Positions 21,812 through 23,520 of a DNA stretch of 64,000 nt are shown here, piece by piece. A program made the translations under genes and the position numbers. The stretch is from positions 1 through 64,000 of the forward strand of contig CAJXQI010000022.1 in the NCBI GenBank assembly GCA_913058395.1, in the 5' to 3' direction. Source of the DNA: an uncultured Colwellia sp. GTDB lineage: Bacteria; Pseudomonadota; Gammaproteobacteria; Enterobacterales; Alteromonadaceae. Below the pieces are notes generated by a model. The model ran no database searches. It saw only the letters and a list, made by a program, of their open reading frames with translations, and had not been told where the DNA came from. Position 1 is the first letter of the stretch. Every line of letters begins with the position of its first letter.

Positions 21812-22636
21812 GTGAATATTGTTCTATTGCTAAATAGTGATGTTGCTAGTAACTTGGCGCTAAATTTATTGCTGCCAACACTAAGCTTACATAAAGTTTC
21901 GGTGTTCTTATCAAGTAAAGTGGGAGGAAACGCTACTCGTCCAGAAGCTTTACAACGTTTGGCTATATTTGAGCAACAAAACGTTTTTCAAATGCTCAGC
22001 GAAAAGTCAAAAAATAGCGGTGACGGCGACTTTAAAAACTTTTCAGAAATAGCGACTGAGCATAGCCTCGCTATTGAAATTCTTAATGATATAAATAGCC
22101 CTGTAGGTGTTGATAAAATTCGTTCATTGTCACCTGATGTTATTATTTCAATTCGTTATGGCGTGATATTGAAAAAACCGATCATTGACTTGGTTAAGCA
22201 TGGTGTTATCAATTTGCATTCTGGAGCATTACCGGCTTATCGTGGTGTTATGGCTACATTCTGGGCGCTGTTGAATGATGAAAAAAAATTGACCGCAACA
22301 TTACATACTATTACTGATAGCACAATAGATACGGGCGGCGTTATTGCTACTGCTACTATCAACGTACAGTCGGAAAAGTCTTATTTATGGCATGTACTTT
22401 CTTTATATGTTGGCGGCTGTCGGCTTATTGAACAAGCGATAAATAATTTAAGTGATGGTTGTATTTTAGATGCGGCCGAACAAAGGCAAGGTGGTCATTA
22501 TTATTCATTTCCGAACACTGAACAAGTTACTGATTTTGTGACGCGATATGGCGATTTGTATCAATCACATGAAATCATAAGCTTACTCAATACCCTAATG
22601 CCGCAAAATAGCATAAGTAACCTGAACTCTGGATAG
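21812..22636 (+). CDS. Formyltransferase family protein with element-derived C terminus
   Basis: A 274-aa protein of the formyl_trans_N fold (Fmt/PurN relatives). The active-site trio is visible: Asn and His in GVINLHSGALPAYRG and Asp in STIDTGGVIATATI. The C-terminal Fmt domain is absent and I cannot name the acceptor. The start is GTG. The final residues NLNSG and the stop codon lie inside the mobile element at 22620-22848. Removing it and one target copy restores an ending of SISKK and a TAA, so the insertion swapped only the last few residues and the enzyme is probably intact. Confidence 0.82.
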   Translation: MNIVLLLNSDVASNLALNLLLPTLSLHKVSVFLSSKVGGNATRPEALQRLAIFEQQNVFQMLSEKSKNSGDGDFKNFSEIATEHSLAIEILNDINSPVGVDKIRSLSPDVIISIRYGVILKKPIIDLVKHGVINLHSGALPAYRGVMATFWALLNDEKKLTATLHTITDSTIDTGGVIATATINVQSEKSYLWHVLSLYVGGCRLIEQAINNLSDGCILDAAEQRQGGHYYSFPNTEQVTDFVTRYGDLYQSHEIISLLNTLMPQNSISNLNSG

Positions 22637-22848
22637 GCAGCACTTGCTCAATTCTCCCTTTTAATCGATTTTCTACGTTAAAACGTCGATAAATAGCGTA
22701 CTATTCATAAACGTTTTGCCTTGAAACTGGCATAAAATGAAGCATTGATGGTGTCTATTAGTGATGTTCACCTTGCTATAGCATTTACTTTGCCATCTAA
22801 GCTTTTGATTTACTTGAGTATCAATCACTCATTATCCAGAGTTCAGGT
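22620..22848. mobile_element. 229-bp MITE-like element with 16-bp inverted ends and 6-bp target duplication
   Basis: ACCTGAACTCTGGATA at 22620-22635 is perfectly inverted at 22833-22848. The 6-base TAAGTA occurs directly outside both ends (22614-22619 and 22849-22854), a clean target-site duplication. No transposase is encoded, so it must be moved in trans by a related insertion sequence. It lies between the formyltransferase and the convergent hydrolase gene and overlaps the former's last codons. Confidence 0.85.
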
Positions 22849-22869
22849 TAAGTAAAAAATAAGCTTATC

Positions 22870-23520
22870 TTAACGCTTAAGCCATATTTTTAAAGGTTTT
22901 ACCCATTCAGGCATTGGCCTATAAAAAGCGCCGTGTTCTTTTCCTGTACTAATTGAAATTTCACTAAAAGAAGCAATAGCTTTACTTTGGTCGTTTAAGA
23001 ATTGGCACGAACCTACCATGTCCGACGTTTCGTAAATTGAATAGATATCACCATAGACTTCAAAATTATTATTGTTTTTCATAAAGCTTGGGCAACTTGC
23101 CAATAACGCAATTTTTACCTTTTGTGATTTTAAATAATTTGAAGCTATTATGGTTATTTCACCACCTCGAGAGAAACCAACTAAGCTAATGTTTTCTGGC
23201 TTTACGCCTTTATTTATTAAACGATTAACATCATTGGCTAACTTAATTGCGAACGTTTTAGGGGTGGTGTTTATCGGGCGATGATAAGCAATTAAATTGT
23301 AGTTGCTGTCTGCTAGTGCGGCTTTTATCTTTGGGAATTCATATTTGCCCCAGCGCGGATGAATAGGCGTAGGGTTTACACCTTCAACAATTTGGCCGTG
23401 AGAATAAAATACATATTTTTCATGAATATGTATTTCTTGTGGAAACTTGTCGAATACTTCGCCTGCAAAGCTAACTGAAGAGTAAAGTAGAAATAGTGTG
23501 ATAAGTAACTTGATGTGAAT
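22870..23520 (-). CDS. Secreted alpha/beta hydrolase-like protein, apparent ATT start
   Basis: Reading the minus strand from 23520 gives 216 residues: a signal peptide ((M)HIKLLITLFLLYSSVSFA, cleavage before GEV), then an alpha/beta-hydrolase fold with YSHGQIVEG, the nucleophile elbow LVGFSRGGE (G-x-S-x-G) and a possible catalytic His in KEHGAFY. No ATG, GTG or TTG lies in frame between an upstream TAA and the signal peptide. The only sensible start is ATT at 23518-23520, just after a strong AAGGAAGG site. The first in-frame ATG is about 140 residues in, beyond the nucleophile. Either the gene uses a rare start or its start codon is mutated. Confidence 0.72.
   Translation of the reverse strand: MHIKLLITLFLLYSSVSFAGEVFDKFPQEIHIHEKYVFYSHGQIVEGVNPTPIHPRWGKYEFPKIKAALADSNYNLIAYHRPINTTPKTFAIKLANDVNRLINKGVKPENISLVGFSRGGEITIIASNYLKSQKVKIALLASCPSFMKNNNNFEVYGDIYSIYETSDMVGSCQFLNDQSKAIASFSEISISTGKEHGAFYRPMPEWVKPLKIWLKR

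Follow-up and report, generated by a model that had tools for sequence, protein, structure and literature searches.

MITEs that write the ends of genes are already known. In Coxiella burnetii, QMITE1 and QMITE2 overlap the 3' ends of functional genes and give them either a stop codon or a short new tail, with 0 to 16 residues conferred in the cases of that paper's Table 2, and it is proposed there that such insertions are tolerated because C termini accept change (PMC5896051). In enterobacteria, the repeat units of the small mobile sequences RU-1, RU-2, and RU-3 form in-frame fusions with the C-terminal ends of genes (PMC2759123, PMC2229807). MITECca01 of Cardinium cOegibbosus is a MITE of about 240 bp that carries the ends of the IS982-family element ISCca4 (PMC9769881).

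The locus described here shares features with all three systems. As with QMITE1 and QMITE2, a MITE writes the last residues and the stop of a gene, but the Colwellia element is flanked by 6-bp duplications of the form TANNTA and its IS982-type end confers a single fixed tail, NLNSG, whereas the direct repeats of QMITEs are variable and of 2 to 3 or 7 to 11 nucleotides (PMC5896051). As with RU-1/2/3, a mobile sequence joins the C-terminal end of a gene, although those sequences have other ends and longer fused peptides, and the accessible portions of those reports mention no IS982 link (PMC2759123, PMC2229807). MITECca01 is similar in length and also has IS982-family ends, but it resides in an endosymbiont lineage whose genome also contains the parent insertion sequence, and the available sections of its description report no C-terminal rewriting (PMC9769881). 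Our literature search returned no description of this MITE family in Colwellia, and the combination of IS982 with Colwellia returned nothing; for the widespread family of IS982-type MITEs to which the element belongs, present in Colwelliaceae, Pseudoalteromonas, Shewanella, and Catenovulum, the search likewise gave no description. With a probability of roughly 90%, we favor the reading that an IS982-mobilized MITE inserted near the stop of the gene before this strain and Cognaticolwellia mytili diverged, exchanging about two residues for five. The locus is a clean example, supported by a sister species, of a protein end that was written by a mobile element.

The element and the gene end that it supplies

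The window, by which we mean the whole 64,000-nucleotide stretch of DNA analyzed here, contains a 229-bp element (22620 to 22848, plus strand) with IS982-type ends and no transposase gene. Its left inverted end, ACCTGAACTCTGGATA (22620 to 22635, plus strand), is matched by an identical 16-mer at the right end (22833 to 22848, minus strand), and copies of TAAGTA flank it at 22614 to 22619 and 22849 to 22854 (both on the plus strand); the target duplication is 6 bp long. Positions 22618 to 22635 and 22833 to 22850 are complementary at 18 of 18 bases, 16 of which belong to the element, while the outer TA on each side belongs to the target duplication. The terminal 16-mer, allowing up to three mismatches, occurs twice in the window, both times exactly, against an expectation of 0.29 in shuffled windows, so the inverted ends are not a product of chance. 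Terminal inverted repeats, a target duplication, short length without a transposase gene, and the existence of several copies identify the element as a MITE, and the description in the earlier note of a 229-bp element with perfect 16-base ends and a TAAGTA duplication is borne out.

The interrupted gene starts with GTG and encodes 274 amino acids (21812 to 22636, plus strand). Residues 100 to 189 match the Formyl_trans_N domain (PF00551; E = 6.3e-15), and no NCBIfam equivalog cutoff is reached, with ArnA, Fmt, and related formyltransferases matching below cutoff only. The open reading frame ends in SIS-NLNSG-stop: the AAC codon spans the junction (22619 to 22621), the left end is read as (A)AC, CTG, AAC, TCT, GGA, and TA(G), and the present stop, TAG (22634 to 22636, plus strand), combines the last two bases of the inverted repeat with one internal base of the element. 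Gene and element thus have this stop in common, and the element supplies the last five codons together with it, as had been proposed from the sequence.

The element lies between convergent genes. The convergent neighbor (22870 to 23520, minus strand) is a hydrolase-like frame with a signal-peptide-like start, in which no ATG, GTG, or TTG occurs until approximately codon 140; a Shine-Dalgarno-like AAGGAAGG stands directly upstream of an ATT (23518 to 23520) that is also present in C. mytili. This neighbor possibly uses a rare ATT start that ordinary open reading frame callers overlook.

When one TAAGTA is kept and the flanks are joined, the old frame reads AGT AAA AAA TAA and the protein ends SISKK at 271 amino acids, the remainder of this former gene end being stranded at 22855 to 22862 (plus strand), where it is now noncoding. 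The earlier note had taken SISKK as the original ending and two or so residues as replaced. Both statements hold for this genome, but C. mytili has one additional base in the A-tract just downstream of the element, and its joined flanks, read by eye, would give SISKKISLS. Since the tract differs between the two carriers and lost its coding role with the insertion, either version may be the drifted one, which makes the ancestral last residues uncertain; the exchange would be of about two residues for five, with a loss of two applying to this genome's reading and not being certain.

The protein was clearly matched in 13 of the 17 genomes of the genus. In C. mytili KCTC 52417 it is 93% identical, the element is inserted at the same base, and the protein likewise ends NLNSG, with AAT in place of AAC as the first codon of the tail and TAA in place of TAG as the stop, both changes being silent. 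None of the 11 other relatives of the protein (265 to 275 amino acids, 44 to 62% identity) ends NLNSG, in keeping with the earlier expectation that the tail would be missing where the element is missing. These relatives are distant and their tails vary, so that they show the tail not to be ancestral without giving the residues that were lost, and no empty site in a close relative was found among the 17 genomes.

In the course of events that we propose, an IS982-family transposase would have acted in trans on the 229-bp MITE, recognizing its ACCTGAACTC...GGATA ends, and would have inserted it at a TANNTA site, with duplication of 6 bp, about three codons upstream of the stop of the formyltransferase-domain gene. 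The shared insertion would place the event before the divergence of this strain from C. mytili. Translation entering the element would then have read N-L-N-S-G-stop, with the loss of about two poorly conserved residues and the gain of five, and the insertion would have survived because the C-terminal tail is outside the conserved domain. The altered protein is presumably made and working.

Copies in the family and their placement

The earlier note had anticipated other copies of the ends, and this genome contains a second full copy (locus L002, C1:132315-132541; 87% identity), a 195-bp sister with the end variant ACCTGAACTCGGGATA (C5:46051-46245), and a lone element end (C7:80218), whereas the reversed control pattern gave no match in this genome. 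The whole element as a query matched 23 of 196 genomes of the GTDB family (E ≤ 0.001). The end pattern is present in 47 of the 196, with none for the reversed control among the matches listed. Among the matches listed for the 18-bp end (at least 119 stretches) are Colwellia, Cognaticolwellia, Pseudoalteromonas, Shewanella, Catenovulum, Paraglaciecola, and others, and the few single-end matches in distant taxa may be due to chance. A blastn search of plasmid records with the element returned no match. We collected 116 element copies with both ends within two mismatches and no more than 300 bp apart, 55 of which measure 227 to 230 bp and 26 of which measure 193 to 195 bp. Cognaticolwellia aestuarii carries four 44-bp versions that comprise scarcely more than both ends (L114, 5853 to 5896; L248, 1501 to 1544; L220, 1220 to 1263; L190, 4505 to 4548). 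Each of the four sites has a 6-bp duplication, which in one case matches at 5 of 6 positions, and two of the versions are identical in sequence; either the transposase needs no more than 44 bp, or full copies have repeatedly undergone deletion between CACT repeats near their two ends.

The position of the element raises the question of whether it was recruited and kept by selection, with a hairpin below the new stop stabilizing or terminating the formyltransferase mRNA or with the tail tagging the protein. The element RNA folds better than its shuffles (z = −4.7), none of 200 of which reaches its stability, it sits between convergent genes, and two species have retained both the insertion and the NLNSG tail with only silent changes in the tail and stop. 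However, any perfect inverted repeat folds well whether or not it has a role, and a comparison of two species over about 17 coding bases is too small to demonstrate selection. The placement of 95 copies, counted against TANNTA sites in the same loci, also argues against recruitment. Three copies lie deep in open reading frames (55.7 expected), 16 in the last 30 bp of one (6.3), 42 between codirectional genes (16.5), 21 between convergent genes (9.0), 12 between divergent genes (7.0), and 1 at an edge (0.4); the open reading frames were called crudely, with a minimum of 100 codons, and one ancestral insertion is counted twice, as L001 and as L016. With deep sites and edges set aside, the share in the last 30 bp (16/91) matches expectation (6.3/38.8), as does the convergent share of sites outside open reading frames (21/75 versus 9.0/32.5), so that a preference for gene ends or convergent sites through selection is unsupported. 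The deficit lies in the deep sites, while the other shares are as expected, and insertions into gene bodies were thus purged and gene ends merely tolerated. We consider recruitment improbable, and the C-terminal change looks like one that was neutrally tolerated.

A still smaller likelihood attaches to the gene being in decay, with the insertion as one step in its loss. A C terminus altered by a mobile element would suit this reading, as would the weak protein matches (E > 1e-9 only) in 4 of the 17 genomes of the genus (G163, G198, G007, and G203), but the frame is intact over 274 codons, the formyltransferase domain is intact, identity to the C. mytili protein is 93%, and the change affects only the tail, whose sequence varies freely from one relative to another.

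Target duplication and probable link to IS982 transposases

The flanking hexamers are identical in 73 of the 116 copies and have the form TANNTA in 71 of the 116; two perfect hexamer pairs, TTATTA and TAACAA, depart from it. The weakest alternative, that the duplication is of 2 bp (AG) around an 18-bp-ended element such as another transposon family would leave, draws on the inverted repeat being perfect over 18 bp and the inner TA being almost invariant, but we reject it as hardly credible given the identical hexamers, including a TTATTA/TTATTA pair whose right inner TT mirrors the left outer TT as a 2-bp duplication does not predict, and given the 6-bp duplications that flank full-length IS982 elements.

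One of these full-length elements, in genome G138, is bounded by the same end and by TAAATA duplications, measures 1,013 bp, and encodes a 299-amino-acid transposase that matches the IS982 model NF033520 (E = 1e-75; 254.5 bits against a cutoff of 130) as well as PF13612. The IS982 element at locus L082 has a left end identical to that of the MITE over 16 bp and a right end matching at 13 of 16 positions. Relatives of the transposase are present in 18 of the 196 family genomes, and related ends with perfect 6-bp duplications were found at 5 of 26 transposase loci (TAAATA, TTATTA, TAAGTA, TAATTA, and TATCTA), no such pair of end and duplication being recognized at the remaining 21. This answers in part the suggestion of a parent insertion sequence: the IS982 class exists in the family, but the transposase had no match in this genome, an assembly of 43 contigs in which an insertion sequence collapsed at contig ends might escape, nor in seven other members of the genus in the searched set.

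The MITE and the insertion sequence have only their terminal 16 bp in common, with different subterminal sequence. We accordingly rejected an origin of the MITE as a simple internal deletion of that insertion sequence, and the IS982 link rests on the ends, the target, and the duplication; from this agreement, the MITE was most likely moved by IS982-family transposases. Multicopy IS982 relatives (61 to 62%) were also observed in G186 (L226, L241, and L245) and G022 (L225, L240, L244, L246, and L247); their ends are missed by the end pattern, though G186 has 66 matches to this pattern.

Recurrence of the NLNSG tail

The element end together with the target's final TA reads TAA CC TGA ACTCTGGA TAA. 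A frame that enters it meets an immediate stop, a stop after T, or a stop after NLNSG, and the same applies from the opposite side; it is this three-frame arrangement that makes the NLNSG tail recur. Among 210 distinct ends, 18 are entered by an open reading frame no shorter than 80 codons; the immediate-stop frame accounts for 12 of these, the NLNSG frame for 5, and the T frame for 1. Where both ends were found for the immediate-stop cases (n = 8), the protein is unchanged in seven and has lost 42 residues in one, with three of the eight having imperfect duplications that make the joins approximate.

In addition to the formyltransferase-domain gene of the window, the NLNSG frame is entered by four others. 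Two are an MFS transporter gene at L002 in this genome, which lost 10 residues and whose duplication copies differ at one base, and an open reading frame of G009 that has no Pfam match and lost KIGF. C. aestuarii contributes the remaining two, an Mntp gene that lost SKAA and a DUF2956 gene for which the far element end was not found. Five unrelated genes, two of them in this genome, end NLNSG through independent insertions. The event in the window is confirmed, but it is not the only one, as the same tail arose independently in at least four other genes. One transposon end thus writes an identical five residues into unrelated genes, and annotators should not mistake an NLNSG tail common to unrelated proteins for a motif, since it is a transposon end.

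A broader speculation, which we regard as unlikely, is that IS982-group ends joined to TANNTA form a compact stop cassette, acting in all three frames from either side with at most five added residues, that this arrangement was perhaps favored because it makes insertions at gene ends harmless, and that NLNSG recurs across marine gammaproteobacteria as a C-terminal tag written by transposons. Of the 18-mer shuffles, 2.7% contain a stop in each of the three frames, a figure of little weight since the pattern was seen first and tested afterwards, and TGA is absent from some IS982 ends. About 35 bp beyond the L002 copy that ends the MFS gene, we observed a further gene, starting MKNIAVILSGCGVYDGAEIHES, which we take to be ElbB-like.
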